The translations under genes were made by a program, and so were the position numbers. A DNA stretch of 64,000 bases. It comes from Aplysia californica. Lineage: Eukaryota > Mollusca > Gastropoda > Aplysiida > Aplysiidae. The notes below the pieces were generated by a model. The model saw only the letters and a program-made list of their open reading frames with translations, had not been told where the DNA came from and did not search any database. Below are positions 1 to 64,000 of the stretch, piece by piece. How positions within the stretch are numbered: the stretch's first letter is position 1; the number at the start of each line of letters is the position of its first letter. The stretch lies in assembly GCF_000002075.1 (NCBI RefSeq), contig NW_004797344.1:1092422-1156421 (forward strand), in the 5' to 3' direction.

Positions 1-246
1 GGTTTTCATAAGTAGATTTACTCGTGTGTACATAGCTAGCCTGACTAGGAAATGGCTTTTGCGTTGGCATGGAGGGAATCTGGGATGAGCCATTCATCCA
101 TTCGATGACAGAGGGAAATGGAACATTAGCTCATGAGTAGGGGGATATAGCAGTACTGGTTGAGTAAGCTGCGTAGAAGACATTGTGATGGGTGTTTGAG
201 GAGAAGCGTTTGACTGTGATTGAAAGCATGTTTTTTCTGGTTTCAG
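1..246 (+). other. Partial intron b upstream of unit 1
   Basis: The window starts within a B-to-A intron. The sequence matches the last 246 nt of the other intron b copies and ends with a T-rich tract and CAG at 244-246. The tract has only six T after CATG, against seven or eight in nearly all other copies. The upstream unit is not visible. Confidence 0.9.
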
Positions 247-971
247 TGCGTCCCAAGACACCAACCCTGAGCAGAGCTCCTACAGATGCTACCATTGAGA
301 GCGGCACATCTGTGACGTTGACATGTGCAACACTGAGCAGTGGAGTTGTGACCTACATATTTTCACAGGGCAGCACCCAGGTTCAAAGCGGCTCCAGCGC
401 CACATACGATTTGGCAAGTGCTGCCACCTCAGACACTGGGTCTTACACGTGTATTGCCAGCATCAGTTCAGTGGACTCCGTTGCCAGCAACACAGAGACC
501 ATGACAGTTGTCGGTGAGTATGATGTCAAGTTCTAGGAGGGTAGGGAATAAGGAAGAGAGATGAGACTGAGAGAGGAGTATTTTGTCCCTTTGTGACACG
601 GTTGACAGAAAAGAAGGATGGAAGAGGAACCTCCATGTGATGTTGTCTGCTGTAGGTTTACGTGCTGGTGAGAAGCAGCGTGGTTGAGCATACTCTTCTG
701 TTTGTTTCTTCAGATAAACCAACGACGCCCACTTTGGCTACCGACAATAGTGACCCAACGGATGGCGATGCCATAACACTGACGTGTACAGCCACAGAGG
801 CCGCGGTAAACAACTATGAGTTCAAACTGGGCTCAACGTCACTGGCTTCTGGAAGTAGCAGCACATATACCATAAGCACTGCAACTATCGGCGCAGATGA
901 TGGCAGCTACACCTGTATTGTGTCCATCGACACCGTGGCCTCAGATGCCAGTAGTGCCGTGGTCGTTGCGC
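247..971 (+). CDS. Ig unit 1 (exons A1, B1)
   Basis: Exon A 247-513, exon B 714-971. Domain A has a private T38I change. Domain B has Thr53, shared only with units 2 and 18-20. This is the most divergent intact unit: shortest acceptor T-tract, altered intron a. Followed by an L intron of the early GAAAGAGG subtype. Confidence 0.85.
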
Positions 972-3900
972 GTGAGTAGAGCAGTATTATATTTGGACTG
1001 TGAGTGTGTCTGTGTCTGTATCGAATACAAAAGTGGGCACGCCGGGGAAAATGTGTGTTGTGTTTACGCGTGACGTTGATTTTTGACAAATTGTTTTCTT
1101 CCGTTTTCACATTTCTGTTTGTTAAGTTTAAGGTTCTTGCTGGTGGAATGTGGGAGGGGTCTTAAGGACTTAATGAAAGAGGTTTTTTTTTAGACAGAAA
1201 GAAGAGGAAAGTTTATGCCTTAGTTTTGATGAAAACACGAGTGATGGTTTGACAGTTGGTTTTCATAAGTAGATTTACTCGTGTGTACATAGCTAGCCTG
1301 ACTAGGAAATGGCTTTTGCGTTGGCATGGAGGGAATCTGGGATGAGCCATTCATCCATTCGATGACAGAGGGAAATGGAACATTAGCTCATGAGTAGGGG
1401 GATATAGCAGTACTGGTTGAGTAAGCTGCGTAGAAGACATTGTGATGGGTGTTTGAGGAGAAGCGTTTGACTGTGATTGAAAGCATGTTTTTTTTCTGGT
1501 TTCAGTGCGTCCCAAGACACCAACCCTGAGCAGAGCTCCTACAGATGCTACCATTGAGAGCGGCACATCTGTGACGTTGACATGTGCAACACTGAGCAGT
1601 GGAGTTGTGACCTACACATTTTCACAGGGCAGCACCCAGGTTCAAAGCGGCTCCAGCGCCACATACGATTTGGCAAGTGCTGCCACCTCAGACACTGGGT
1701 CTTACACGTGTATTGCCAGCATCAGTTCAGTGGACTCCGTTGCCAGCAACACAGAGACCATGACAGTTGTCGGTGAGTATGATGTCAAGTTCTAGGAGGG
1801 CAGGGAATAAGGAAGAGAGATGAGACTGAGAGAGGAGTATTTTGTCCCTTTGTGACACGGTTGACAGAAAAGAAGGATGGAAGAGGAACCTCCATTTGAT
1901 GTTGTCTGCTGTAGGTTTACGTGCTGGTGAGAAGCAGCGTGGTTGAGCATACTCTTCTGTTTGTTTCCTCAGATAAACCAACGACGCCCACTTTGGCTAC
2001 CGACAATAGTGACCCAACGGATGGCGATGCCATAACACTGACGTGTACAGCCACAGAGGCCGCGGTAAACAACTATGAGTTCAAACTGGGCTCAACGTCA
2101 CTGGCTTCTGGAAGTAGCAGCACATATACCATAAGCACTGCAACTATCGGCGCAGATGATGGCAGCTACACCTGTATTGTGTCCATCGACACCGTGGCCT
2201 CAGATGCCAGTAGTGCCGTGGTCGTTGCGCGTGAGTAGAGCAGTATTATATTTGGACTGTGAGTGTGTCTGTGTCTGTATCGAATACAAAAGTGGGCACG
2301 CCGGGGAAAATGTGTGTTGTGTTTACGCGTGACGTTGATTTTTGACAAATTGTTTTCTTCCGTTTTCACATTTCTGTTTGTTAAGTTTAAGGTTCTTGCT
2401 GGTGGAATGTGGGAGGGGTCTTAAGGACTTAATGAAAGAGGTTTTTTTTTAGACAGAAAGAAGAGGAAAGTTTATGCCTTAGTTTTGATGAAAACACGAG
2501 TGATGGTTTGACAGTTGGTTTTCATAAGTAGATTTACTCGTGTGTACATAGCTAGCCTGACTAGGAAATGGCTTTTGCGTTGGCATGGAGGGAATCTGGG
2601 ATGAGCCATTCATCCATTCGATGACAGAGGGAAATGGAACATTAGCTCATGAGTAGGGGGATATAGCAGTACTGGTTGAGTAAGCTGCGTAGAAGACATT
2701 GTGATGGGTGTTTGAGGAGAAGCGTTTGACTGTGATTGAAAGCATGTTTTTTTTCTGGTTTCAGTGCGTCCCAAGACACCAACCCTGAGCAGAGCTCCTA
2801 CAGATGCTACCATTGAGAGCGGCACATCTGTGACGTTGACATGTGCAACACTGAGCAGTGGAGTTGTGACCTACACATTTTCACAGGGCAGCACCCAGGT
2901 TCAAAGCGGCTCCAGCGCCACATACGATTTGGCAAGTGCTGCCACCTCAGACACTGGGTCTTACACGTGTATTGCCAGCATCAGTTCAGTGGACTCCGTT
3001 GCCAGCAACACAGAGACCATGACAGTTGTCGGTGAGTATGATGTCAAGTTCTAGGAGGGCAGGGAATAAGGAAGAGAGATGAGACTGAGAGAGGAGTATT
3101 TTGTCCCTTTGTGACACCGTTGACAGAAAAGAAGGATGGAAGAGGAACCTCCATTTGATGTTGTCTGCTGTAGGTTTACGTGCTGGTGAGAAGCAGCGTG
3201 GTTGAGCATACTCTTCTGTTTGTTTCCTCAGATAAACCAACGACGCCCACTTTGGCTACCGACAATAGTGACCCAACGGATGGCGATGCCATAACACTGA
3301 CGTGTACAGCCACAGAGGCCGCGGTAAACAACTATGAGTTCAAACTGGGCTCAACGTCACTGGCTTCTGGAAGTAGCAGCACATATTCCATAAGCACTGC
3401 AACTATCGGCGCAGATGATGGCAGCTACACCTGTATTGTGTCCATCGACACCGTGGCCTCAGATGCCAGTAGTGCCGTGGTCGTTGCGCGTGAGTAGAGC
3501 AGTATTATATTTGGACTGTGAGTGTGTCTGTGTCTGTATCGAATACAAAAGTGGGCACGCCGGGGAAAATGTGTGTTGTGTTTACGCGTGACGTTGATTT
3601 TTGACAAATTGTTTTCTTCCGTTTTCACATTTCTGTTTGTTAAGTTTAAGTTTCTTGCTGGTGGAATGTGGGAGGGGTCTTAAGGACTTAATGAATGAGG
3701 GTTTTTTTTAGACAGAAAGAAGAGGAAAGTTTATGCCTTAGTTTTGATGAAAACACGAGTGATGATTTGACAGTGGGTTTTCATAAGTAGATTTACTCGT
3801 GTGTACATAGCTAGCCTGACTAGGAAATGGCTTTTGCGTTGGCATGGAGGGAATCTGGGATGAGCCATTCATCCATTCGATGACAGAGGGAAATGGAACA

Positions 3901-6900: not shown

Positions 6901-9900
6901 CAGAAAAGAAGGATGGAAGAGGAACCTCCATTTGATGTTGTCTGCTGTAGGTTTACGTGCTGGTGAGAAGCAGCGTGGTTGAGCATACTCTTCTGTTTGT
7001 TTCCTCAGATAAACCAACGACGCCCACTTTGGCTACCGACAATAGTGACCCAACGGATGGCGATGCCATAACACTGACGTGTACAGCCACAGAGGCCGCG
7101 GTAAACAACTATGAGTTCAAACTGGGCTCAACGTCACTGGCTTCTGGAAGTAGCAGCACATATTCCATAAGCACTGCAACTATCGGCGCAGATGATGGCA
7201 GCTACACCTGTATTGTGTCCATCGACACCGTGGCCTCAGATGCCAGTAGTGCCGTGGTCGTTGCGCGTGAGTAGAGCAGTATTATATTTGGACTGTGAGT
7301 GTGTCTGTGTCTGTATCGAATACAAAGGTGGGCACTCCGGGGAAAATGTGTGTTGTGTTTACGCGTGACGTTGATTTTTGACAAATTGTTTTCTTCCGTT
7401 TTCACATTTCTGTTTGTTAAGTTTAAGTTTCTTGCTGGTGGAATGTGGGAGGGGTCTTAAGGACTTAATGAATGAGGGTTTTTTTTAGACAGAAAGAAGA
7501 GGAAAGTTTATGCCTTAGTTTTGATGAAAACACGAGTGATGATTTGACAGTGGGTTTTCATAAGTAGATTTACTCGTGTGTACATAGCTAGCCTGACTAG
7601 GAAATGGCTTTTGCGTTGGCATGGAGGGAATCTGGGATGAGCCATTCATCCATTCGATGACAGAGGGAAATGGAACATTAGCTCATGAGTAGGGGGATAT
7701 AGCAGTACTGGTTGAGTAAGCTGCGTAGAAGACATTGTGATGGGTGTTTGAGGAGAAGCGTTTGACTGTGATTGAAAGCATGTTTTGTTTCTGGTTTCAG
7801 TGCGTCCCAAGACACCAAACCTGAGCAGAGCTCCTACAGATGCTACCATTGAGAGCGGCACATCTGTGACGTTGACATGTGCAACACTGAGCAGTGGAGT
7901 TGTGACCTACACATTTTCACAGGGCAGCACCCAGGTTCAAAGCGGCTCCAGCGCCACATACGATTTGGCAAGTGCTGCCACCTCAGACACTGGGTCTTAC
8001 ACGTGTATTGCCAGCATCAGTTCAGTGGACTCCGTTGCCAGCAACACAGAGACCATGACAGTTGTCGGTGAGTATGATGTCAAGTTCTAGGAGGGCAGGG
8101 AATAAGGAAGAGAGATGAGACTGAGAGAGGAGTATTTTGTCCCTTTGTGACACGGTTGACAGAAAAGAAGGATGGAAGAGGAACCTCCATTTGATGTTGT
8201 CTGCTGTAGGTTTACGTGCTGGTGAGAAGCAGCGTGGTTGAGCATACTCTTCTGTTTGTTTCCTCAGATAAACCAACGACGCCCACTTTGGCTACCGACA
8301 ATAGTGACCCAACGGATGGCGATGCCATAACACTGACGTGTACAGCCACAGAGGCCGCGGTAAACAACTATGAGTTCAAACTGGGCTCAACGTCACTGGC
8401 TTCTGGAAGTAGCAGCACATATTCCATAAGCACTGCAACTATCGGCGCAGATGATGGCAGCTACACCTGTATTGTGTCCATCGACACCGTGGCCTCAGAT
8501 GCCAGTAGTGCCGTGGTCGTTGCGCGTGAGTAGAGCAGTATTATATTTGGACTGTGAGTGTGTCTGTGTCTGTATCGAATACAAAAGTGGGCACGCCGGG
8601 GAAAATGTGTGTTGTGTTTACGCGTGACGTTGATTTTTGACAAATTGTTTTCTTCCGTTTTCACATTTCTGTTTGTTAAGTTTAAGTTTCTTGCTGGTGG
8701 AATGTGGGAGGGGTCTTAAGGACTTAATGAATGAGGGTTTTTTTTAGACAGAAAGAAGAGGAAAGTTTATGCCTTAGTTTTGATGAAAACACGAGTGATG
8801 ATTTGACAGTGGGTTTTCATAAGTAGATTTACTCGTGTGTACATAGCTAGCCTGACTAGGAAATGGCTTTTGCGTTGGCATGGAGGGAATCTGGGATGAG
8901 CCATTCATCCATTCGATGACAGAGGGAAATGGAACATTAGCTCATGAGTAGGGGGATATAGCAGTACTGGTTGAGTAAGCTGCGTAGAAGACATTGTGAT
9001 GGGTGTTTGAGGAGAAGCGTTTGACTGTGATTGAAAGCATGTTTTGTTTCTGGTTTCAGTGCGTCCCAAGACACCAAACCTGAGCAGAGCTCCTACAGAT
9101 GCTACCATTGAGAGCGGCACATCTGTGACGTTGACATGTGCAACACTGAGCAGTGGAGTTGTGACCTACACATTTTCACAGGGCAGCACCCAGGTTCAAA
9201 GCGGCTCCAGCGCCACATACGATTTGGCAAGTGCTGCCACCTCAGACACTGGGTCTTACACGTGTATTGCCAGCATCAGTTCAGTGGACTCCGTTGCCAG
9301 CAACACAGAGACCATGACAGTTGTCGGTGAGTATGATGTCAAGTTCTAGGAGGGCAGGGAATAAGGAAGAGAGATGAGACTGAGAGAGGAGTATTTTGTC
9401 CCTTTGTGACACGGTTGACAGAAAAGAAGGATGGAAGAGGAACCTCCATTTGATGTTGTCTGCTGTAGGTTTACGTGCTGGTGAGAAGCAGCGTGGTTGA
9501 GCATACTCTTCTGTTTGTTTCCTCAGATAAACCAACGACGCCCACTTTGGCTACCGACAATAGTGACCCAACGGATGGCGATGCCATAACACTGACGTGT
9601 ACAGCCACAGAGGCCGCGGTAAACAACTATGAGTTCAAACTGGGCTCAACGTCACTGGCTTCTGGAAGTAGCAGCACATATTCCATAAGCACTGCAACTA
9701 TCGGCGCAGATGATGGCAGCTACACCTGTATTGTGTCCATCGACACCGTGGCCTCAGATGCCAGTAGTGCCGTGGTCGTTGCGCGTGAGTAGAGCAGTAT
9801 TATATTTGGACTGTGAGTGTGTCTGTGTCTGTATCGAATACAAAAGTGGGCACGCCGGGGAAAATGTGTGTTGTGTTTACGCGTGACGTTGATTTTTGAC

Positions 9901-12900
9901 AAATTGTTTTCTTCCGTTTTCACATTTCTGTTTGTTAAGTTTAAGTTTCTTGCTGGTGGAATGTGGGAGGGGTCTTAAGGACTTAATGAATGAGGGTTTT
10001 TTTTAGACAGAAAGAAGAGGAAAGTTTATGCCTTAGTTTTGATGAAAACACGAGTGATGATTTGACAGTGGGTTTTCATAAGTAGATTTACTCGTGTGTA
10101 CATAGCTAGCCTGACTAGGAAATGGCTTTTGCGTTGGCATGGAGGGAATCTGGGATGAGCCATTCATCCATTCGATGACAGAGGGAAATGGAACATTAGC
10201 TCATGAGTAGGGGGATATAGCAGTACTGGTTGAGTAAGCTGCGTAGAAGACATTGTGATGGGTGTTTGAGGAGAAGCGTTTGACTGTGATTGAAAGCATG
10301 TTTTGTTTCTGGTTTCAGTGCGTCCCAAGACACCAAACCTGAGCAGAGCTCCTACAGATGCTACCATTGAGAGCGGCACATCTGTGACGTTGACATGTGC
10401 AACACTGAGCAGTGGAGTTGTGACCTACACATTTTCACAGGGCAGCACCCAGGTTCAAAGCGGCTCCAGCGCCACATACGATTTGGCAAGTGCTGCCACC
10501 TCAGACACTGGGTCTTACACGTGTATTGCCAGCATCAGTTCAGTGGACTCCGTTGCCAGCAACACAGAGACCATGACAGTTGTCGGTGAGTATGATGTCA
10601 AGTTCTAGGAGGGCAGGGAATAAGGAAGAGAGATGAGACTGAGAGAGGAGTATTTTGTCCCTTTGTGACACGGTTGACAGAAAAGAAGGATGGAAGAGGA
10701 ACCTCCATTTGATGTTGTCTGCTGTAGGTTTACGTGCTGGTGAGAAGCAGCGTGGTTGAGCATACTCTTCTGTTTGTTTCCTCAGATAAACCAACGACGC
10801 CCACTTTGGCTACCGACAATAGTGACCCAACGGATGGCGATGCCATAACACTGACGTGTACAGCCACAGAGGCCGCGGTAAACAACTATGAGTTCAAACT
10901 GGGCTCAACGTCACTGGCTTCTGGAAGTAGCAGCACATATTCCATAAGCACTGCAACTATCGGCGCAGATGATGGCAGCTACACCTGTATTGTGTCCATC
11001 GACACCGTGGCCTCAGATGCCAGTAGTGCCGTGGTCGTTGCGCGTGAGTAGAGCAGTATTATATTTGGACTGTGAGTGTGTCTGTGTCTGTATCGAATAC
11101 AAAAGTGGGCACTCCGGGGAAAATGTGTGTTGTGTTTACGCGTGACGTTGATTTTTGACAAATTGTTTTCTTCCGTTTTCACATTTCTGTTTGTTAAGTT
11201 TAAGTTTCTTGCTGGTGGAATGTGGGAGGGGTCTTAAGGACTTAATGAATGAGGGTTTTTTTTAGACAGAAAGAAGAGGAAAGTTTATGCCTTAGTTTTG
11301 ATGAAAACACGAGTGATGATTTGACAGTGGGTTTTCATAAGTAGATTTACTCGTGTGTACATAGCTAGCCTGACTAGGAAATGGCTTTTGCGTTGGCATG
11401 GAGGGAATCTGGGATGAGCCATTCATCCATTCGATGACAGAGGGAAATGGAACATTAGCTCATGAGTAGGGGGATATAGCAGTACTGGTTGAGTAAGCTG
11501 CGTAGAAGACATTGTGATGGGTGTTTGAGGAGAAGCGTTTGACTGTGATTGAAAGCATGTTTTGTTTCTGGTTTCAGTGCGTCCCAAGACACCAAACCTG
11601 AGCAGAGCTCCTACAGATGCTACCATTGAGAGCGGCACATCTGTGACGTTGACATGTGCAACACTGAGCAGTGGAGTTGTGACCTACACATTTTCACAGG
11701 GCAGCACCCAGGTTCAAAGCGGCTCCAGCGCCACATACGATTTGGCAAGTGCTGCCACCTCAGACACTGGGTCTTACACGTGTATTGCCAGCATCAGTTC
11801 AGTGGACTCCGTTGCCAGCAACACAGAGACCATGACAGTTGTCGGTGAGTATGATGTCAAGTTCTAGGAGGGCAGGGAATAAGGAAGAGAGATGAGACTG
11901 AGAGAGGAGTATTTTGTCCCTTTGTGACACGGTTGACAGAAAAGAAGGATGGAAGAGGAACCTCCATTTGATGTTGTCTGCTGTAGGTTTACGTGCTGGT
12001 GAGAAGCAGCGTGGTTGAGCATACTCTTCTGTTTGTTTCCTCAGATAAACCAACGACGCCCACTTTGGCTACCGACAATAGTGACCCAACGGATGGCGAT
12101 GCCATAACACTGACGTGTACAGCCACAGAGGCCGCGGTAAACAACTATGAGTTCAAACTGGGCTCAACGTCACTGGCTTCTGGAAGTAGCAGCACATATT
12201 CCATAAGCACTGCAACTATCGGCGCAGATGATGGCAGCTACACCTGTATTGTGTCCATCGACACCGTGACCTCAGATGCCAGTAGTGCCGTGGTCGTTGC
12301 GCGTGAGTAGAGCAGTATTATATTTGGACTGTGAGTGTGTCTGTGTCTGTATCGAATACAAAAGTGGGCACGCCGGGGAAAATGTGTGTTGTGTTTACGC
12401 GTGACGTTGATTTTTGACAAATTGTTTTCTTCCGTTTTCACATTTCTGTTTGTTAAGTTTAAGTTTCTTGCTGGTGGAATGTGGGAGGGGTCTTAGGGAC
12501 TTAATGAATTAGGCTTTTTTAGACAGAATGAGCAAAGTTTATGTCTAATTTTGAGAAAAACACGAGTGATGGTTTGACAGTGGGTTTTCATAAGTAGATT
12601 TACTCGTGTGTACATAGCTAGCCTGACTAGGAAATGGCTTTTGCGTTGGCATGGAGGGAATCTGGGATGAGCCATTCATCCATTCGATGACAGAGGGAAA
12701 TGGAACATTAGCTCATGAGTAGGGGGATATAGCAGTACTGGTTGAGTAAGCTGCGTAGAAGACATTGTGATGGGTGTTTGAGGAGAAGCGTTTGACTGTG
12801 ATTAAAAGCATGTTTTTTTCTGGTTTCAGTGCGTCCCAAGACACCAACCCTGAGCAGAGCTCCTACAGATGCTACCATTGAGAGCGGCACATCTGTGACG

Positions 12901-30900: not shown

Positions 30901-33900
30901 ATGGCGATGCCATAACACTGACGTGTACAGCCACAGAGGCCGCGGTAAACAACTATGAGTTCAAACTGGGCTCAACGTCACTGGCTTCTGGAAGTAGCAG
31001 CACATATTCCATAAGCACTGCAACTATCGGCGCAGATGATGGCAGCTACACCTGTATTGTGTCCATCGACACCGTGGCCTCAGATGCCAGTAGTGCCGTG
31101 GTCGTTGCGCGTGAGTAGAGCAGTATTATATTTGGACTGTGAGTGTGTCTGTGTCTGTATCGAATACAAAAGTGGGCACGCCGGGGAAAATGTGTGTTGT
31201 GTTTACGCGTGACGTTGATTTTTGACAAATTGTTTTCTTCCGTTTTCACATTTCTGTTTGTTAAGTTTAAGTTTCTTGCTGGTGGAATGTGGGAGGGGTC
31301 TTAAGGACTTAATGAATGAGGGTTTTTTTTAGACAGAAAGAAGAGGAAAGTTTATGCCTTAGTTTTGATGAAAACACGAGTGATGATTTGACAGTGGGTT
31401 TTCATAAGTAGATTTACTCGTGTGTACATAGCTAGCCTGACTAGGAAATGGCTTTTGCGTTGGCATGGAGGGAATCTGGGATGAGCCATTCATCCATTCG
31501 ATGACAGAGGGAAATGGAACATTAGCTCATGAGTAGGGGGATATAGCAGTACTGGTTGAGTAAGCTGCGTAGAAGACATTGTGATGGGTGTTTGAGGAGA
31601 AGCGTTTGACTGTGATTGAAAGCATGTTTTTTTTCTGGTTTCAGTGCGTCCCAAGACACCAACCCTGAGCAGAGCTCCTACAGATGCTACCATTGAGAGC
31701 GGCACATCTGTGACGTTGACATGTGCAACACTGAGCAGTGGAGTTGTGACCTACACATTTTCACAGGGCAGCACCCAGGTTCAAAGCGGCTCCAGCGCCA
31801 CATACGATTTGGCAAGTGCTGCCACCTCAGACACTGGGTCTTACACGTGTATTGCCAGCATCAGTTCAGTGGACTCCGTTGCCAGCAACACAGAGACCAT
31901 GACAGTTGTCGGTGAGTATGATGTCAAGTTCTAGGAGGGCAGGGAATAAGGAAGAGAGATGAGACTGAGAGAGGAGTATTTTGTCCCTTTGTGACACGGT
32001 TGACAGAAAAGAAGGATGGAAGAGGAACCTCCATTTGATGTTGTCTGCTGTAGGTTTACGTGCTGGTGAGAAGCAGCGTGGTTGAGCATACTCTTCTGTT
32101 TGTTTCCTCAGATAAACCAACGACGCCCACTTTGGCTACCGACAATAGTGACCCAACGGATGGCGATGCCATAACACTGACGTGTACAGCCACAGAGGCC
32201 GCGGTAAACAACTATGAGTTCAAACTGGGCTCAACGTCACTGGCTTCTGGAAGTAGCAGCACATATTCCATAAGCACTGCAACTATCGGCGCAGATGATG
32301 GCAGCTACACCTGTATTGTGTCCATCGACACCGTGGCCTCAGATGCCAGTAGTGCCGTGGTCGTTGCGCGTGAGTAGAGCAGTATTATATTTGGACTGTG
32401 AGTGTGTCTGTGTCTGTATCGAATACAAAAGTGGGCACGCCGGGGAAAATGTGTGTTGTGTTTACGCGTGACGTTGATTTTTGACAAATTGTTTTCTTCC
32501 GTTTTCACATTTCTGTTTGTTAAGTTTAAGTTTCTTGCTGGTGGATATGTGGGAGGGGTCTTAGGGACTTAATAAATTAGGCTTTTTTAGACAGAATGAG
32601 CAAAGTTTATGTCTAATTTTGAGAAAAACACGAGTGATGGTTTGACAGTGGGTTTTCATAAGTAGATTTACTCGTGTGTACATAGCTAGCCTGACTAGGA
32701 AATGGCTTTTGCGTTGGCATGGAGGGAATCTGGGATGAGCCATTCATCCATTCGATGACAGAGGGAAATGGAACATTAGCTCATGAGTAGGGGGATATAG
32801 CAGTACTGGTTGAGTAAGCTGCGTAGAAGACATTGTGATGGGTGTTTGAGGAGAAGCGTTTGACTGTGATTGAAAGCATTTTTTTTTTCTGTTTTCAGTG
32901 CGTCCCAAGACGCCTCCCTGGTAGAGCTCCTACAGATGCTACCATTGAGAGCGGCACATCTGTGACGTTGACATGTGCAACACTGAGCAGTGGAGTTGTG
33001 ACCTACACATTTTCACAGGGCAGCACCCAGGTTCAAAGCGGCTCCAGCGCCACATACGATTTGGCAAGTGCTGCCACCTCAGACACTGGGTCTTACACGT
33101 GTATTGCCAGCATCAGTTCAGTGGACTCCGTTGCCAGCAACACAGAGACCATGACAGTTGTCGGTGAGTATGATGTCAAGTTCTAGGAGGGCAGGGAATA
33201 AGGAAGAGAGATGAGACTGAGAGAGGAGTATTTTGTCCCTTTGTGACACGGTTGACAGAAAAGAAGGATGGAAGAGGAACCTCCATTTGATGTTGTCTGC
33301 TGTAGGTTTACGTGCTGGTGAGAAGCAGCGTGGTTGAGCATACTCTTCTGTTTGTTTCCTCAGATAAACCAACGACGCCCACTTTGGCTACCGACAATAG
33401 TGACCCAACGGATGGCGATGCCATAACACTGACGTGTACAGCCACAGAGGCCGCGGTAAACAACTATGAGTTCAAACTGGGCTCAACGTCACTGGCTTCT
33501 GGAAGTAGCAGCACATATTCCATAAGCACTGCAACTATCGGCGCAGATGATGGCAGCTACACCTGTATTGTGTCCATCGACACCGTGGCCTCAGATGCCA
33601 GTAGTGCCGTGGTCGTTGCGCGTGAGTAGAGCAGTATTATATTTGGACTGTGAGTGTGTCTGTGTCTGTATCGAATACAAAAGTGGGCACGCCGGGGAAA
33701 ATGTGTGTTGTGTTTACGCGTGACGTTGATTTTTGACAAATTGTTTTCTTCCGTTTTCACATTTCTGTTTGTTAAGTTTAAGTTTCTTGCTGGTGGAATG
33801 TGGGAGGGGTCTTAGGGACTTAATAAATTAGGCTTTTTTAGACAGAATGAGCAAAGTTTATGTCTAATTTTGAGAAAAACACGAGTGATGGTTTGAAAGT

Positions 33901-57900: not shown

Positions 57901-60900
57901 AGTACTGGTTGAGTAAGCTGCGTAGAAGACATTGTGATGGGTGTTTGAGGAGAAGCGTTTGACTGTGATTGAAAGCATGTTTTTTTCTGGTTTCAGTGCG
58001 TCCCAAGACACCAACCCTGAGCAGAGCTCCTACAGATGCTACCATTGAGAGCGGCACATCTGTGACGTTGACATGTGCAACACTGAGCAGTGGAGTTGTG
58101 ACCTACACATTTTCACAGGGCAGCACCCAGGTTCAAAGCGGCTCCAGCGCCACATACGATTTGGCAAGTGCTGCCACCTCAGACACTGGGTCTTACACGT
58201 GTATTGCCAGCATCAGTTCAGTGGACTCCGTTGCCAGCAACACAGAGACCATGACAGTTGTCGGTGAGTATGATGTCAAGTTCTAGGAGGGCAGGGAATA
58301 AGGAAGAGAGATGAGACTGAGAGAGGAGTATTTTGTCCCTTTGTGACACGGTTGACAGAAAAGAAGGATGGAAGAGGAACCTCCATTTGATGTTGTCTGC
58401 TGTAGGTTTACGTGCTGGTGAGAAGCAGCGTGGTTGAGCATACTCTTCTGTTTGTTTCCTCAGATAAACCAACGACGCCCACTTTGGCTACCGACAATAG
58501 TGACCCAACGGATGGCGATGCCATAACACTGACGTGTACAGCCACAGAGGCCGCGGTAAACAACTATGAGTTCAAACTGGGCTCAACGTCACTGGCTTCT
58601 GGAAGTAGCAGCACATATTCCATAAGCACTGCAACTATCGGCGCAGATGATGGCAGCTACACCTGTATTGTGTCCATCGACACCGTGACCTCAGATGCCA
58701 GTAGTGCCGTGGTCGTTGCGCGTGAGTAGAGCAGTATTATATTTGGACTGTGAGTGTGTCTGTGTCTGTATCGAATACAAAAGTGGGCACGCCGGGGAAA
58801 ATGTGTGTTGTGTTTACGCGTGACGTTGATTTTTGACAAATTGTTTTCTTCCGTTTTCACATTTCTGTTTGTTAAGTTTAAGTTTCTTGCTGGTGGAATG
58901 TGGGAGGGGTCTTAAGGACTTAATGAATGAGGGTTTTTTTTAGACAGAAAGAAGAGGAAAGTTTATGCCTTAGTTTTGATGAAAACACGAGTGATGATTT
59001 GACAGTGGGTTTTCATAAGTAGATTTACTCGTGTGTACATAGCTAGCCTGACTAGGAAATGGCTTTTGCGTTGGCATGGAGGGAATCTGGGATGAGCCAT
59101 TCATCCATTCGATGACAGAGGGAAATGGAACATTAGCTCATGAGTAGGGGGATATAGCAGTACTGGTTGAGTAAGCTGCGTAGAAGACATTGTGATGGGT
59201 GTTTGAGGAGAAGCGTTTGACTGTGATTGAAAGCATGTTTTTTTTCTGGTTTCAGTGCGTCCCAAGACACCAACCCTGAGCAGAGCTCCTACAGATGCTA
59301 CCATTGAGAGCGGCACATCTGTGACGTTGACATGTGCAACACTGAGCAGTGGAGTTGTGACCTACACATTTTCACAGGGCAGCACCCAGGTTCAAAGCGG
59401 CTCCAGCGCCACATACGATTTGGCAAGTGCTGCCACCTCAGACACTGGGTCTTACACGTGTATTGCCAGCATCAGTTCAGTGGACTCCGTTGCCAGCAAC
59501 ACAGAGACCATGACAGTTGTCGGTGAGTATGATGTCAAGTTCTAGGAGGGCAGGGAATAAGGAAGAGAGATGAGACTGAGAGAGGAGTATTTTGTCCCTT
59601 TGTGACACGGTTGACAGAAAAGAAGGATGGAAGAGGAACCTCCATTTGATGTTGTCTGCTGTAGGTTTACGTGCTGGTGAGAAGCAGCGTGGTTGAGCAT
59701 ACTCTTCTGTTTGTTTCCTCAGATAAACCAACGACGCCCACTTTGGCTACCGACAATAGTGACCCAACGGATGGCGATGCCATAACACTGACGTGTACAG
59801 CCACAGAGGCCGCGGTAAACAACTATGAGTTCAAACTGGGCTCAACGTCACTGGCTTCTGGAAGTAGCAGCACATATTCCATAAGCACTGCAACTATCGG
59901 CGCAGATGATGGCAGCTACACCTGTATTGTGTCCATCGACACCGTGGCCTCAGATGCCAGTAGTGCCGTGGTCGTTGCGCGTGAGTAGAGCAGTATTATA
60001 TTTGGACTGTGAGTGTGTCTGTGTCTGTATCGAATACAAAAGTGGGCACGCCGGGGAAAATGTGTGTTGTGTTTACGCGTGACGTTGATTTTTGACAAAT
60101 TGTTTTCTTCCGTTTTCACATTTCTGTTTGTTAAGTTTAAGGTTCTTGCTGGTGGAATGTGGGAGGGGTCTTAAGGACTTAATGAATGAGGGTTTTTTTT
60201 AGACAGAAAGAAGAGGAAAGTTTATGCCTTAGTTTTGATGAAAACACGAGTGATGATTTGACAGTGGGTTTTCATAAGTAGATTTACTCGTGTGTACATA
60301 GCTAGCCTGACTAGGAAATGGCTTTTGCGTTGGCATGGAGGGAATCTGGGATGAGCCATTCATCCATTCGATGACAGAGGGAAATGGAACATTAGCTCAT
60401 GAGTAGGGGGATATAGCAGTACTGGTTGAGTAAGCTGCGTAGAAGACATTGTGATGGGTGTTTGAGGAGAAGCGTTTGACTGTGATTGAAAGCATGTTTT
60501 TTTTCTGGTTTCAGTGCGTCCCAAGACACCAACCCTGAGCAGAGCTCCTACAGATGCTACCATTGAGAGCGGCACATCTGTGACGTTGACATGTGCAACA
60601 CTGAGCAGTGGAGTTGTGACCTACACATTTTCACAGGGCAGCACCCAGGTTCAAAGCGGCTCCAGCGCCACATACGATTTGGCAAGTGCTGCCACCTCAG
60701 ACACTGGGTCTTACACGTGTATTGCCAGCATCAGTTCAGTGGACTCCGTTGCCAGCAACACAGAGACCATGACAGTTGTCGGTGAGTATGATGTCAAGTT
60801 CTAGGAGGGCAGGGAATAAGGAAGAGAGATGAGACTGAGAGAGGAGTATTTTGTCCCTTTGTGACACGGTTGACAGAAAAGAAGGATGGAAGAGGAACCT

Positions 60901-63751
60901 CCATTTGATGTTGTCTGCTGTAGGTTTACGTGCTGGTGAGAAGCAGCGTGGTTGAGCATACTCTTCTGTTTGTTTCCTCAGATAAACCAACGACGCCCAC
61001 TTTGGCTACCGACAATAGTGACCCAACGGATGGCGATGCCATAACACTGACGTGTACAGCCACAGAGGCCGCGGTAAACAACTATGAGTTCAAACTGGGC
61101 TCAACGTCACTGGCTTCTGGAAGTAGCAGCACATATTCCATAAGCACTGCAACTATCGGCGCAGATGATGGCAGCTACACCTGTATTGTGTCCATCGACA
61201 CCGTGACCTCAGATGCCAGTAGTGCCGTGGTCGTTGCGCGTGAGTAGAGCAGTATTATATTTGGACTGTGAGTGTGTCTGTGTCTGTATCGAATACAAAA
61301 GTGGGCACGCCGGGGAAAATGTGTGTTGTGTTTACGCGTGACGTTGATTTTTGACAAATTGTTTTCTTCCGTTTTCACATTTCTGTTTGTTAAGTTTAAG
61401 TTTCTTGCTGGTGGAATGTGGGAGGGGTCTTAGGGACTTAATGAATTAGGCTTTTTTAGACAGAATGAGCAAAGTTTATGTCTAATTTTGAGAAAAACAC
61501 GAGTGATGGTTTGACAGTGGGTTTTCATAAGTAGATTTACTCGTGTGTACATAGCTAGCCTGACTAGGAAATGGCTTTTGCGTTGGCATGGAGGGAATCT
61601 GGGATGAGCCATTCATCCATTCGATGACAGAGGGAAATGGAACATTAGCTCATGAGTAGGGGGATATAGCAGTACTGGTTGAGTAAGCTGCGTAGAAGAC
61701 ATTGTGATGGGTGTTTGAGGAGAAGCGTTTGACTGTGATTGAAAGCATGTTTTTTTTCTGGTTTCAGTGCGTCCCAAGACACCAACCCTGAGCAGAGCTC
61801 CTACAGATGCTACCATTGAGAGCGGCACATCTGTGACGTTGACATGTGCAACACTGAGCAGTGGAGTTGTGACCTACACATTTTCACAGGGCAGCACCCA
61901 GGTTCAAAGCGGCTCCAGCGCCACATACGATTTGGCAAGTGCTGCCACCTCAGACACTGGGTCTTACACGTGTATTGCCAGCATCAGTTCAGTGGACTCC
62001 GTTGCCAGCAACACAGAGACCATGACAGTTGTCGGTGAGTATGATGTCAAGTTCTAGGAGGGCAGGGAATAAGGAAGAGAGATGAGACTGAGAGAGGAGT
62101 ATTTTGTCCCTTTGTGACACGGTTGACAGAAAAGAAGGATGGAAGAGGAACCTCCATTTGATGTTGTCTGCTGTAGGTTTACGTGCTGGTGAGAAGCAGC
62201 GTGGTTGAGCATACTCTTCTGTTTGTTTCCTCAGATAAACCAACGACGCCCACTTTGGCTACCGACAATAGTGACCCAACGGATGGCGATGCCATAACAC
62301 TGACGTGTACAGCCACAGAGGCCGCGGTAAACAACTATGAGTTCAAACTGGGCTCAACGTCACTGGCTTCTGGAAGTAGCAGCACATATTCCATAAGCAC
62401 TGCAACTATCGGCGCAGATGATGGCAGCTACACCTGTATTGTGTCCATCGACACCGTGGCCTCAGATGCCAGTAGTGCCGTGGTCGTTGCGCGTGAGTAG
62501 AGCAGTATTATATTTGGACTGTGAGTGTGTCTGTGTCTGTATCGAATACAAAAGTGGGCACGCCGGGGAAAATGTGTGTTGTGTTTACGCGTGACGTTGA
62601 TTTTTGACAAATTGTTTTCTTCCGTTTTCACATTTCTGTTTGTTAAGTTTAAGTTTCTTGCTGGTGGAATGTGGGAGGGGTCTTAAGGACTTAATGAATG
62701 AGGGTTTTTTTTAGACAGAAAGAAGAGGAAAGTTTATGCCTTAGTTTTGATGAAAACACGAGTGATGATTTGACAGTGGGTTTTCATAAGTAGATTTACT
62801 CGTGTGTACATAGCTAGCCTGACTAGGAAATGGCTTTTGCGTTGGCATGGAGGGAATCTGGGATGAGCCATTCATCCATTCGATGACAGAGGGAAATGGA
62901 ACATTAGCTCATGAGTAGGGGGATATAGCAGTACTGGTTGAGTAAGCTGCGTAGAAGACATTGTGATGGGTGTTTGAGGAGAAGCGTTTGACTGTGATTG
63001 AAAGCATGTTTTTTTTCTGGTTTCAGTGCGTCCCAAGACACCAACCCTGAGCAGAGCTCCTACAGATGCTACCATTGAGAGCGGCACATCTGTGACGTTG
63101 ACATGTGCAACACTGAGCAGTGGAGTTGTGACCTACACATTTTCACAGGGCAGCACCCAGGTTCAAAGCGGCTCCAGCGCCACATACGATTTGGCAAGTG
63201 CTGCCACCTCAGACACTGGGTCTTACACGTGTATTGCCAGCATCAGTTCAGTGGACTCCGTTGCCAGCAACACAGAGACCATGACAGTTGTCGGTGAGTA
63301 TGATGTCAAGTTCTAGGAGGGCAGGGAATAAGGAAGAGAGATGAGACTGAGAGAGGAGTATTTTGTCCCTTTGTGACACGGTTGACAGAAAAGAAGGATG
63401 GAAGAGGAACCTCCATTTGATGTTGTCTGCTGTAGGTTTACGTGCTGGTGAGAAGCAGCGTGGTTGAGCATACTCTTCTGTTTGTTTCCTCAGATAAACC
63501 AACGACGCCCACTTTGGCTACCGACAATAGTGACCCAACGGATGGCGATGCCATAACACTGACGTGTACAGCCACAGAGGCCGCGGTAAACAACTATGAG
63601 TTCAAACTGGGCTCAACGTCACTGGCTTCTGGAAGTAGCAGCACATATTCCATAAGCACTGCAACTATCGGCGCAGATGATGGCAGCTACACCTGTATTG
63701 TGTCCATCGACACCGTGGCCTCAGATGCCAGTAGTGCCGTGGTCGTTGCGC
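247..63751 (+). CDS. Giant tandem-Ig-domain protein gene, internal part (51 two-exon units)
   Basis: This is an internal segment of a very large gene for an Ig-repeat protein. I do not recognise the gene. Every unit has exon A, a 200-nt intron a, exon B and an intron b of 527-534 nt. Exon A enters in phase 1 (first codon completed as CTG, Leu) and ends in phase 1; exon B likewise (first codon GAT, Asp). Domain A has Cys27 and Cys69, with D63-x-G65-x-Y67-x-C69. Domain B has Cys25 and Cys68, with D62-x-G64-x-Y66-x-C68. These are the B- and F-strand signatures of the Ig fold. The usual strand-C Trp is Phe in both (F39, F37). No N-x-S/T sequon is present; the domains are acidic and rich in Ser/Thr/Ala. 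Such proteins are normally extracellular adhesion, matrix or recognition molecules; that role is inferred from the family. Residue numbers in the unit entries start at the split first codon. The alternative is an untranscribed array. Confidence 0.85.
514..713 (+). other. Intron a (A to B), reference copy
   Basis: GTGAGTATG donor at 514 and a pyrimidine-rich acceptor ending CAG at 713. The first 120 nt are purine-rich. Reading through the donor in frame adds seven residues and then meets TAG at 534-536, so retention would truncate the protein. All 51 copies are exactly 200 nt. The intron contains a second acceptor-like and donor-like pair bracketing 12 nt (see 656-667). Unit 1 differs from the common form by CCATGTGATG and by a CTTCAG acceptor where others have CCTCAG. 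Confidence 0.85.
656..667 (+). other. Candidate 12-nt in-frame micro-exon inside intron a
   Basis: A TGTCTGCTGTAG acceptor-like site ends at 655 and a CTG/GTGAGA donor-like site begins at 668. The 12 nt between them would enter and leave in phase 1 and add Gly-Leu-Arg-Ala between domains A and B, with the junction Asp kept. The same 12 nt and acceptor-like site occur at the same place in all 51 units; the donor-like site is GTGAAA in units 28-32. Against it: the downstream intron would be only 46 nt, and near-identity of the copies makes conservation uninformative. This is a speculation from splice-site pattern only. Confidence 0.25.
972..1505 (+). other. Intron b (B to A), reference copy, long class
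   Basis: GTGAGTAGA donor at 972 and a T-rich acceptor ending CAG at 1505. In-frame read-through of the donor meets TAG at 977-979. I see no gene, RNA gene or known mobile element in its 534 nt. It holds a TG-rich stretch just after the donor and an internal T-tract plus TAG that resembles a decoy acceptor. Unit 1 and 2 introns carry GAAAGAGG before that tract (positions near 1166-1190); later L introns have GAATGAGGG. S-class introns have GAATTAGGC and a shorter stretch after it. Confidence 0.85.
1506..2230 (+). CDS. Ig unit 2 (exons A2, B2)
   Basis: Exon A 1506-1772, exon B 1973-2230. Domain A has the consensus sequence; domain B keeps Thr53 as in unit 1. The following L intron is again the GAAAGAGG subtype found only after units 1 and 2. 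Confidence 0.85.
2765..3489 (+). CDS. Ig unit 3 (exons A3, B3)
   Basis: Exon A 2765-3031, exon B 3232-3489. First unit with Ser53, the common residue of domain B. Intron a has GACACCGTTGAC, a change shared by units 3-6. Followed by a standard L intron (GAATGAGGG). Confidence 0.85.
4024..4748 (+). CDS. Ig unit 4 (exons A4, B4)
   Basis: Exon A 4024-4290, exon B 4491-4748. Both domains are consensus. Carries the units 3-6 intron a marker (GACACCG). L intron follows. Confidence 0.85.
5283..6007 (+). CDS. Ig unit 5 (exons A5, B5)
   Basis: Exon A 5283-5549, exon B 5750-6007. Both domains are consensus. The L intron that follows has GGGCACTCCG in place of GGGCACGCCG, shared with units 6, 9 and 37. 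Confidence 0.85.
6542..7266 (+). CDS. Ig unit 6 (exons A6, B6)
   Basis: Exon A 6542-6808, exon B 7009-7266. Both domains are consensus. The following L intron has the CACTCCG marker plus a private ACAAAGGTGGG change. Confidence 0.85.
7801..8525 (+). CDS. Ig unit 7 (exons A7, B7)
   Basis: Exon A 7801-8067, exon B 8268-8525. First of four units (7-10) with T7N in domain A and a G interrupting the acceptor T-tract (TTTTGTTTCTGG). Intron a returns to GACACGG. L intron follows. Confidence 0.85.
9060..9784 (+). CDS. Ig unit 8 (exons A8, B8)
   Basis: Exon A 9060-9326, exon B 9527-9784. T7N in domain A and interrupted T-tract, as in units 7, 9 and 10. L intron follows. Confidence 0.85.
10319..11043 (+). 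CDS. Ig unit 9 (exons A9, B9)
   Basis: Exon A 10319-10585, exon B 10786-11043. T7N block. The L intron that follows carries the CACTCCG marker, so this marker recurs four units after units 5-6. Last L intron before a run of S introns. Confidence 0.85.
11578..12302 (+). CDS. Ig unit 10 (exons A10, B10)
   Basis: Exon A 11578-11844, exon B 12045-12302. Combines the T7N A domain with an A76T B domain, the latter also in units 13, 46, 47 and 49. First S intron (527 nt) follows, so this unit marks a junction between two array segments. Confidence 0.85.
12830..13554 (+). CDS. Ig unit 11 (exons A11, B11)
   Basis: Exon A 12830-13096, exon B 13297-13554. A synonymous AGC to AGT at Ser72 of domain A marks units 11-14, together with GATTAAAAGC before the acceptor. 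Intron a has CCATGTGATG as in units 1 and 14. S intron follows. Confidence 0.85.
14082..14806 (+). CDS. Ig unit 12 (exons A12, B12)
   Basis: Exon A 14082-14348, exon B 14549-14806. Consensus protein; Ser72 AGT marker. Common CCATTTGATG in intron a. S intron follows. Confidence 0.85.
15334..16058 (+). CDS. Ig unit 13 (exons A13, B13)
   Basis: Exon A 15334-15600, exon B 15801-16058. Domain B has A76T as in unit 10, three units upstream. Ser72 AGT marker. S intron follows. Confidence 0.85.
16586..17310 (+). CDS. Ig unit 14 (exons A14, B14)
   Basis: Exon A 16586-16852, exon B 17053-17310. Ser72 AGT and CCATGTGATG repeat the unit 11 pattern three units later. The S intron that follows has CTTAAGGAC (L-like) ahead of the S body, a recombinant start. 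Confidence 0.85.
17838..18562 (+). CDS. Ig unit 15 (exons A15, B15)
   Basis: Exon A 17838-18104, exon B 18305-18562. Returns to AGC at Ser72 and GATTGAAAGC before the acceptor. S intron (528 nt) with CTTAAGGAC follows. Confidence 0.85.
19091..19815 (+). CDS. Ig unit 16 (exons A16, B16)
   Basis: Exon A 19091-19357, exon B 19558-19815. Domain B has a private S81T change near its C-terminus. S intron with CTTAAGGAC follows. Confidence 0.85.
20343..21067 (+). CDS. Ig unit 17 (exons A17, B17)
   Basis: Exon A 20343-20609, exon B 20810-21067. Consensus domains. Followed by an L intron of 533 nt with a seven-T acceptor tract, the first L intron after seven S introns. Confidence 0.85.
21601..22325 (+). 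CDS. Ig unit 18 (exons A18, B18)
   Basis: Exon A 21601-21867, exon B 22068-22325. Domain B has Thr53, S55I and A57T plus a synonymous ACA at Thr67, a cluster shared by units 18-20 only. S intron follows. Confidence 0.85.
22854..23578 (+). CDS. Ig unit 19 (exons A19, B19)
   Basis: Exon A 22854-23120, exon B 23321-23578. Same Thr53/Ile55/Thr57 B domain as units 18 and 20, here followed by an L intron of 533 nt. Confidence 0.85.
24112..24836 (+). CDS. Ig unit 20 (exons A20, B20)
   Basis: Exon A 24112-24378, exon B 24579-24836. Last unit with the Thr53/Ile55/Thr57 B domain. GATTAAAAGC precedes the exon A acceptor. S intron follows. Confidence 0.85.
25364..26088 (+). CDS. Ig unit 21 (exons A21, B21)
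   Basis: Exon A 25364-25630, exon B 25831-26088. Consensus domains; GATTAAAAGC before the acceptor. The 532-nt intron that follows is a hybrid: S sequence up to TTTTTTAGACAGAA, then L sequence. Its CGTGTTTACATAG variant marks introns after units 21-23. Confidence 0.85.
26621..27345 (+). CDS. Ig unit 22 (exons A22, B22)
   Basis: Exon A 26621-26887, exon B 27088-27345. Consensus domains. The L intron that follows keeps CGTGTTTACATAG and has a private GCTGAGTAGAAG. Confidence 0.85.
27880..28604 (+). CDS. Ig unit 23 (exons A23, B23)
   Basis: Exon A 27880-28146, exon B 28347-28604. Consensus domains. The S intron that follows ends with the L-type GATGATTTGACAG, a second kind of S/L recombinant, and still has CGTGTTTACATAG. 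Confidence 0.85.
29133..29857 (+). CDS. Ig unit 24 (exons A24, B24)
   Basis: Exon A 29133-29399, exon B 29600-29857. Consensus domains. S intron with L-type GATGATTTG tail follows, as after unit 23, but with the common CGTGTGTACATAG. Confidence 0.85.
30386..31110 (+). CDS. Ig unit 25 (exons A25, B25)
   Basis: Exon A 30386-30652, exon B 30853-31110. Consensus domains; standard L intron follows. Confidence 0.85.
31645..32369 (+). CDS. Ig unit 26 (exons A26, B26)
   Basis: Exon A 31645-31911, exon B 32112-32369. Consensus domains. The 529-nt S intron that follows has an extra T (GGTGGATATGTG) and an AATAAA hexamer at 32571, and leads into the damaged exon A of unit 27. Confidence 0.85.
32571..32576 (+). 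promoter_or_regulatory. AATAAA poly(A)-like hexamer in intron b after unit 26
   Basis: A single G to A change turns the AATGAA of other S introns into AATAAA. It sits about 320 nt upstream of the damaged exon A of unit 27. A canonical hexamer alone is weak evidence of polyadenylation; a T-rich tract and TGAG-type sequence follow but no strong GU-rich element is obvious. Confidence 0.3.
32899..33621 (+). CDS. Ig unit 27: exon A frame-broken, exon B intact
   Basis: Exon A 32899-33163 is 265 nt, not 267. Two single-base losses and several substitutions lie between about 32911 and 32924. Read in the normal phase it gives seven full codons after the split one and then TAG at 32922-32924. The rest of domain A is intact in its own frame. 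Exon B 33364-33621 is consensus. The acceptor is also altered (GCAT, nine T, CTGTTTTCAG). Because the exon is phase 1-1, skipping it would keep the frame; including it would truncate the protein. It could be real damage, a converted patch from a diverged copy, or an assembly error. Confidence 0.75.
33822..33827 (+). promoter_or_regulatory. AATAAA poly(A)-like hexamer in intron b after unit 27
   Basis: Same change as at 32571, in the next intron. I found this hexamer in no other intron b of the window, so the two copies probably share one mutation spread by unit duplication. Confidence 0.3.
34149..34873 (+). CDS. Ig unit 28 (exons A28, B28)
   Basis: Exon A 34149-34415, exon B 34616-34873. First of five units (28-32) with GGTGAAAAGC in intron a. 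Asn33 of domain B is AAT; GATTAAAAGC precedes the acceptor. L intron follows. Starts a 2-unit higher-order pattern. Confidence 0.85.
35408..36132 (+). CDS. Ig unit 29 (exons A29, B29)
   Basis: Exon A 35408-35674, exon B 35875-36132. GGTGAAAAGC in intron a; Asn33 is AAC and GATTGAAAGC precedes the acceptor, opposite to units 28 and 30. L intron of 533 nt follows. Confidence 0.85.
36666..37390 (+). CDS. Ig unit 30 (exons A30, B30)
   Basis: Exon A 36666-36932, exon B 37133-37390. Marker set of unit 28 (AAT at Asn33, GATTAAAAGC, GGTGAAAAGC) but followed by an S intron. Confidence 0.85.
37919..38643 (+). CDS. Ig unit 31 (exons A31, B31)
   Basis: Exon A 37919-38185, exon B 38386-38643. Marker set of unit 29 (AAC at Asn33, eight-T tract). 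L intron of 533 nt follows. Confidence 0.85.
39177..39901 (+). CDS. Ig unit 32 (exons A32, B32)
   Basis: Exon A 39177-39443, exon B 39644-39901. Marker set of units 28 and 30; last unit with GGTGAAAAGC in intron a. S intron follows. Confidence 0.85.
40429..41153 (+). CDS. Ig unit 33 (exons A33, B33)
   Basis: Exon A 40429-40695, exon B 40896-41153. Asn33 AAT persists while intron a returns to GGTGAGAAGC. L intron follows. Confidence 0.85.
41688..42412 (+). CDS. Ig unit 34 (exons A34, B34)
   Basis: Exon A 41688-41954, exon B 42155-42412. Asn33 AAC, eight-T acceptor tract. S intron follows. Confidence 0.85.
42940..43664 (+). CDS. Ig unit 35 (exons A35, B35)
   Basis: Exon A 42940-43206, exon B 43407-43664. 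Asn33 AAT, the last unit with it; seven-T acceptor tract as in unit 33. S intron follows. Confidence 0.85.
44192..44916 (+). CDS. Ig unit 36 (exons A36, B36)
   Basis: Exon A 44192-44458, exon B 44659-44916. Consensus domains, Asn33 AAC. S intron of 528 nt follows, third S intron in a row. Confidence 0.85.
45445..46169 (+). CDS. Ig unit 37 (exons A37, B37)
   Basis: Exon A 45445-45711, exon B 45912-46169. Domain A has a private V34I. The following L intron is unusual: CACTCCG marker, GACATTGATCTTTGAC changes and nine T in the internal tract. Confidence 0.85.
46704..47428 (+). CDS. Ig unit 38 (exons A38, B38)
   Basis: Exon A 46704-46970, exon B 47171-47428. Private synonymous TAC to TAT at Tyr54 of domain A. 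The 532-nt intron that follows is the same S-head/L-tail hybrid seen after unit 21. Confidence 0.85.
47961..48685 (+). CDS. Ig unit 39 (exons A39, B39)
   Basis: Exon A 47961-48227, exon B 48428-48685. Consensus domains. S intron of 528 nt follows. Confidence 0.85.
49214..49938 (+). CDS. Ig unit 40 (exons A40, B40)
   Basis: Exon A 49214-49480, exon B 49681-49938. Consensus domains. L intron follows. Confidence 0.85.
50473..51197 (+). CDS. Ig unit 41 (exons A41, B41)
   Basis: Exon A 50473-50739, exon B 50940-51197. Consensus domains. The S intron that follows is the first with GAAGACACTGTG in place of GAAGACATTGTG, a marker before exon A of units 42-46. Confidence 0.85.
51725..52449 (+). CDS. 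Ig unit 42 (exons A42, B42)
   Basis: Exon A 51725-51991, exon B 52192-52449. Consensus domains; GACACTGTG upstream. S intron follows. Confidence 0.85.
52977..53701 (+). CDS. Ig unit 43 (exons A43, B43)
   Basis: Exon A 52977-53243, exon B 53444-53701. Consensus domains; GACACTGTG upstream. S intron follows, with AAGTTTCTTG where its neighbours have AAGGTTCTTG. Confidence 0.85.
54229..54953 (+). CDS. Ig unit 44 (exons A44, B44)
   Basis: Exon A 54229-54495, exon B 54696-54953. Consensus domains; GACACTGTG upstream. L intron of 533 nt follows, so the GACACTGTG marker occurs on both intron classes. Confidence 0.85.
55487..56211 (+). CDS. Ig unit 45 (exons A45, B45)
   Basis: Exon A 55487-55753, exon B 55954-56211. 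Consensus domains; GACACTGTG upstream. S intron follows. Confidence 0.85.
56739..57463 (+). CDS. Ig unit 46 (exons A46, B46)
   Basis: Exon A 56739-57005, exon B 57206-57463. Last unit with GACACTGTG upstream. Domain B has A76T, seen earlier in units 10 and 13. L intron of 533 nt follows. Confidence 0.85.
57997..58721 (+). CDS. Ig unit 47 (exons A47, B47)
   Basis: Exon A 57997-58263, exon B 58464-58721. A76T in domain B as in unit 46. L intron follows. Confidence 0.85.
59256..59980 (+). CDS. Ig unit 48 (exons A48, B48)
   Basis: Exon A 59256-59522, exon B 59723-59980. Consensus Ala76, lying between A76T units 47 and 49. L intron follows. Confidence 0.85.
60515..61239 (+). CDS. Ig unit 49 (exons A49, B49)
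   Basis: Exon A 60515-60781, exon B 60982-61239. A76T in domain B, here followed by an S intron of 528 nt as in the unit 10 and 13 copies. Confidence 0.85.
61768..62492 (+). CDS. Ig unit 50 (exons A50, B50)
   Basis: Exon A 61768-62034, exon B 62235-62492. Consensus domains. L intron follows. Confidence 0.85.
63027..63751 (+). CDS. Ig unit 51 (exons A51, B51)
   Basis: Exon A 63027-63293, exon B 63494-63751. Consensus domains. Last complete unit; the intron after it is cut by the window end. Confidence 0.85.
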
Positions 63752-64000
63752 GTGAGTAGAGCAGTATTATATTTGGACTGTGAGTGTGTCTGTGTCTGTA
63801 TCGAATACAAAAGTGGGCACGCCGGGGAAAATGTGTGTTGTGTTTACGCGTGACGTTGATTTTTGACAAATTGTTTTCTTCCGTTTTCACATTTCTGTTT
63901 GTTAAGTTTAAGGTTCTTGCTGGTGGAATGTGGGAGGGGTCTTAAGGACTTAATGAATTAGGCTTTTTTAGACAGAAAGAAGAGGAAAGTTTATGCCTTA
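63752..64000 (+). other. Partial intron b after unit 51 (S/L hybrid)
   Basis: GTGAGT donor at 63752. The visible 249 nt show GAATTAGGC (S) and then AGACAGAAAGAAGAGG (L), the same recombinant as after units 21 and 38. The window ends inside it, so a further unit probably follows. Confidence 0.85.

Follow-up and report, generated by a model that had tools for sequence, protein, structure and literature searches.

A homogenised tandem array of two-exon immunoglobulin units, probably a coding VNTR within one gene

Introduction

What kind of locus carries the same two immunoglobulin (Ig) exons, nearly unchanged, from one end of 64 kb to the other? Long series of Ig domains are found in hemicentin, titin and other giant proteins. 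In hemicentin and titin the Ig domains have diverged from one another, and the usual view of an Ig series is one of diverged domains with separate roles. In the array described here, by contrast, two sequences alternate nearly unchanged. We suggest that the DNA analysed probably lies inside a single Ig-superfamily gene and forms a multi-exon coding VNTR, which would encode an acidic Ig stalk or fibre of great length, rich in Ser and Thr. Three other explanations are weighed below: an assembly artefact, a locus of singly used cassettes and a satellite-like gene fragment.

Structure of the array

The window, meaning the whole stretch of 64,000 nucleotides analysed, consists of 51 exon pairs in one direct tandem array, every pair on the + strand with no inverted copy. 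Unit starts, as marked by exon anchors that recur on this strand only, lie 1252–1259 bp apart, and mean pairwise identity between units is 99.27%, with a minimum of 97.9%. At 51 units over 64 kb, this is the long head-to-tail array of kilobase units that defines a macrosatellite. The main features are:

1..64000, + strand: tandem array; a 246-bp partial unit, 50 full units of 1252–1259 bp and a 974-bp partial unit; both ends open
247..513, + strand: exon A of the first unit; 267 nt, phase 1-1, one Ig domain; 51 copies
514..713, + strand: short intron A-to-B; 200 bp, GTGAGT...CAG; an in-frame stop codon shortly past the donor
714..971, + strand: exon B of the first unit; 258 nt, phase 1-1, one Ig domain; 51 copies, 0 broken
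972..1505, + strand: long intron B-to-A; about 532 bp; a two-version block at unit positions ~919–999

An initial annotation of this DNA had described 51 units with 102 phase 1-1 Ig exons and no other gene, and exon mapping bears out that anatomy. It had also proposed that the array runs off both ends. Because the leading 246 bp and the trailing 974 bp are themselves unit sequence, the array does continue past both ends of the window. Chance origin of such an array is impossible.

Every exon is bounded by a TCAG acceptor and a GTGAGT donor (51/51 A exons and 51/51 B exons), so the splice signals are intact throughout (102/102), as had been claimed. Exon A is 267 nt long in all copies except one of 265 nt, exon B is always 258 nt, and every copy is in phase 1-1. 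Since both exons are symmetric, any number of units would splice in frame, and the gain or loss of a unit never breaks the frame. The array thus has the makeup of a multi-exon coding VNTR: near-identical units, each with whole, symmetric, in-frame exons. Besides the exons, the six-frame list for both strands of the unit consensus contains no further long gene-like open reading frame. Neither AATAAA, ATTAAA nor TATAAA occurs on either strand of the consensus, and a search of the first 4 kb of the window against Rfam gave no match. Tandem Repeats Finder gave no report, solely because its longest period was 500.

Tandem arrays are error-prone in assembly, and one unit carries an odd cluster of differences next to a T-run (see below). 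Both facts would fit an assembly artefact, in which the copy number was inflated or a smaller true array was looped. However, 43 of the 50 full units are distinct, and nowhere in the array does a run of several adjacent units recur exactly. The longest exact repeat, 2,543 bp, is well inside the length of long reads. Variants are shared between units as patchy mosaics, not as copied blocks. On these grounds a looped assembly is unlikely, and we regard an artefact of either kind as very improbable.

Encoded domains

Both exons match profiles of the immunoglobulin superfamily above the curated gathering scores of Pfam (30 bits for Ig_3 and 27 bits for Ig_2). Exon A scores 36.3 bits with Ig_3 and 33.4 with Ig_2; exon B scores 30.7 and 29.3, respectively. 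Each domain contains two cysteines, the B/F-strand pair of a beta-sandwich, and the structure model is confident for exon A alone. One of five models of exon A folded well (pLDDT 90.5); it matches Ig domains of Fc-gamma receptors, FCRLA and CD22 with Z-scores up to 14.4 and an rmsd of 1.5 over 86 residues. The model of exon B (pLDDT 38) was left unused. The predicted exon A domain resembles C2-like Ig domains, a likeness that indicates a fold and no function. A search of the whole domains against NCBIfam gave no match.

The two exons are related to each other. Forty of 83 aligned residues (48%) are identical between A and B, and the nucleotide differences number 40, 37 and 57 at codon positions 1, 2 and 3, a third-position excess with P=0.001. 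This concentration at third positions indicates that A and B diverged as protein-coding sequence. Their divergence under protein-level constraint predates the amplification of the array, and the comparison, together with the Ig fold, shows a coding descent of the exons. A recent duplication that included the introns was rejected as the source of the A-B pair, since the short and the long intron have no real similarity to each other.

Tryptophan is absent from both domains, which are acidic (pI 4.0–4.2) and consist of 34–40% Ser and Thr, with no N-glycosylation sequon in either consensus. Domains so acidic and so rich in Ser and Thr are better suited to an extracellular stalk or an adhesive fibre than to a recognition repertoire. 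In four consecutive units (~7801–11844), Thr is replaced by Asn at residue 6 of exon A, which creates the only sequon in the array (N-L-S).

In the PDB, Ig-like or tail proteins (9ncf, 9c2d) give the top sequence matches and rank above animal Ig proteins. With tblastn, exons A and B show 33–35% identity to tail proteins of Citrobacter and Shigella phages. A bacterial or phage origin was rejected: the window contains spliceosomal introns, and the similarity is that of a common short Ig type. Searches of viral contigs and of prokaryote genome contigs returned no relatives of the array.

The intact A exons encode four protein versions and the B exons five, differing by 1–2 residues. The initial annotation had called the copies almost the same and had argued from this against a repertoire; the unit identity given above and the small number of protein versions uphold it on both points. 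Dscam exon clusters and the sDscam cassettes of chelicerates share with the array the arrangement of tandem Ig exon units in a single orientation, but their alternative exons are diverged whereas those here are near-identical. The sequence-diverse alternative exons of a Dscam-type repertoire are not found, and on the sequences in the window this lack of diversity excludes such a repertoire.

A related explanation is that the units are used singly, through alternative promoters or alternative splicing as in chelicerate sDscam and the clustered protocadherins, with one or a few Ig exon pairs in each mRNA. In sDscam-beta, too, the cassettes are tandem copies with two Ig domains apiece (PMC4835542), and symmetric exons can be skipped freely. 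Yet selection among copies that encode four intact A and five B proteins would yield no isoform diversity, and the six-frame list reveals no obvious start or leader exon in the unit. In addition, the two Ig domains of an sDscam-beta cassette are spread over four exons, and cassettes generally have their own promoters (PMC4835542). We consider single use of the units a distinctly unlikely explanation.

Exchange between units

The distribution of variants among units was analysed at 35 informative sites. All four combinations are present at 247 of the 595 site pairs (four-gamete test; Rm at least 6), and linkage between variant sites decays with distance. Adjacent units are more similar than permuted ones (P=1e-4). 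A block of the long intron, at unit positions ~919–999, exists in two versions that differ by linked changes (26 versus 24 units), and each version is found on several exon haplotypes. Reshuffled haplotypes and greatest likeness between neighbours show exchange between units, and the pattern is the signature of unequal crossing-over and gene conversion. The exchange proposed in the initial annotation, which would drive length variation, is supported by four-gamete pairs, neighbour similarity and linkage decay alike. Because units exchange, differences in copy number are likely, and we expect copy-number variation between individuals.

The two versions of the intron block are scattered along the array. 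They form long runs at the left (9 and then 7 units) and are mixed further right.

Reading frames and selection

The frame is open in 101 of the 102 exons. The exception is one copy of exon A near the middle of the window:

32880..32922, + strand: patch of clustered differences; spans the intron end and the start of exon A; substitutions and a 2-bp deletion
32899..33163, + strand: broken exon A; 265 nt; frameshift, stop at codon 8

The 2-bp deletion sits within the ~43-bp cluster of differences, which reaches into the preceding intron and adjoins a T-run. Either gene conversion by a diverged relative or a local error in the consensus would typically look like this patch. If the broken exon is real and included, the transcript would end after 26 units of the window. 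Skipping the exon keeps the frame because the exon is symmetric; the assembled frame is thus interrupted at this point unless the exon is skipped or misassembled.

How much do the open frames say about function? The initial annotation had counted 101 open frames, and the count is correct, but it carries little weight as evidence of function. With the two-version intron block and the broken exon set aside, variable sites number 12 of 525 in the exons and 17 of 618 in the introns (P=0.71). Since exons vary as much as introns, present-day selection is not evident. Eight of the 12 exon substitutions are nonsynonymous (N:S 8:4), compared with about 70% expected without selection. About 2% of random exon changes yield a stop codon, so that, without selection, no more than about 0.2 of the 12 substitutions would be expected to be nonsense, and any neutral test has low power here. 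Furthermore, because the units are 99.3% identical, the 102 exons amount to roughly one observation, not 101 independent ones. The intact frames and splice sites are mostly a legacy of a single recent ancestral unit. As judged from sequence variation, the open frames neither prove nor disprove present-day function, and the argument from them is weak.

These results bear on a further explanation, that the array is a satellite-like, amplified fragment of a two-exon gene, whose expression was lost or never whole and whose frames are intact solely through the recency of amplification and homogenisation. Exon variation no lower than that of introns, a neutral-like N:S ratio and the persistence of a frameshifted exon that has not been removed all favour such a fragment, and at 99.3% identity the intact frames are uninformative. 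Against it, every splice site and all frames but one are intact, the B exons have no defects, and the sole disruption is a clustered patch, with no scattered decay. Few random defects are expected in any case, so these points carry little weight. Taking both sides together, a satellite-like fragment seems rather unlikely.

Discussion

Our preferred reading remains a coding VNTR within one Ig gene. A unit of two Ig exons would have multiplied to at least 51 copies, which would be kept alike by unequal crossing-over and gene conversion acting from unit to unit. Transcription through the array and constitutive splicing would then give (A-B)n, with each unit adding 525 nt, or 175 residues. Copy number would set the length of the stalk or adhesive fibre and leave its surface unchanged. 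As a single joined protein, the share of the window would be up to 8,925 residues (about 0.9 MDa); the initial annotation had proposed one giant protein with at least about 8,900. The first and last exons of the gene, its signal peptide and its anchor would lie beyond the window. We infer that transcription passes through the array, that the exons end up in one protein, that its length is polymorphic and that its role is structural or adhesive. Quite possibly, though we propose it tentatively, the product of this single gene reaches megadalton size, with more than 100, perhaps several hundred, alternating near-identical Ig domains and a length that differs from allele to allele through unequal crossing-over. 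This would be the most homogenised Ig series known and among the longest. Hemicentin is put at >600 kDa (PMC8429575), and the hallmark terminal domains of a hemicentin or titin would lie outside the window. In a literature search of partial coverage, no published description of near-identical tandem Ig exons turned up, which is no proof of novelty.

The closest parallel is the KIV-2 repeat of the human LPA gene. In KIV-2 two exons together make one domain, a kringle, whereas in the Ig array each exon is a whole domain. Both consist of near-identical two-exon genomic units in tandem, inside one gene in LPA and probably here too, and in both the units fall into subtypes that differ in their introns. 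The KIV-2 unit is 5.6 kb, compared with 1.25 kb here, and is present in 1 to >40 copies that give rise to length isoforms; its subtypes carry intronic differences (PMC6314250). By this analogy, the organisation is of the LPA KIV-2 type, though the repeated domain is another one and the copies are more numerous (at least 51). A functional parallel is offered by VERL, the egg-coat receptor of abalone, a giant fibrous extracellular protein of ~22 tandem beta-sandwich repeats of ~150 residues, of which the internal ones are homogenised (PMC3567151). VERL resembles the Ig array as a homogenised repeat protein; it differs in having ZP-N domains, fewer repeats and a known function in fertilisation.

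If transcribed as one gene, the locus would be the Ig equivalent of LPA KIV-2 at a higher copy number, and it would mean that concerted evolution can turn an Ig series into a polymer of tuned length. The splicing of >100 near-identical exons and introns, and the variation of protein length between individuals, would be put to the test as well. Such loci are easily lost from short-read assemblies.

A minor observation concerns the left end of the window. The two leftmost units (~247–2764) carry 6 and 3 rare variants, more than most others, and the edge of the array is possibly nearer on that side.
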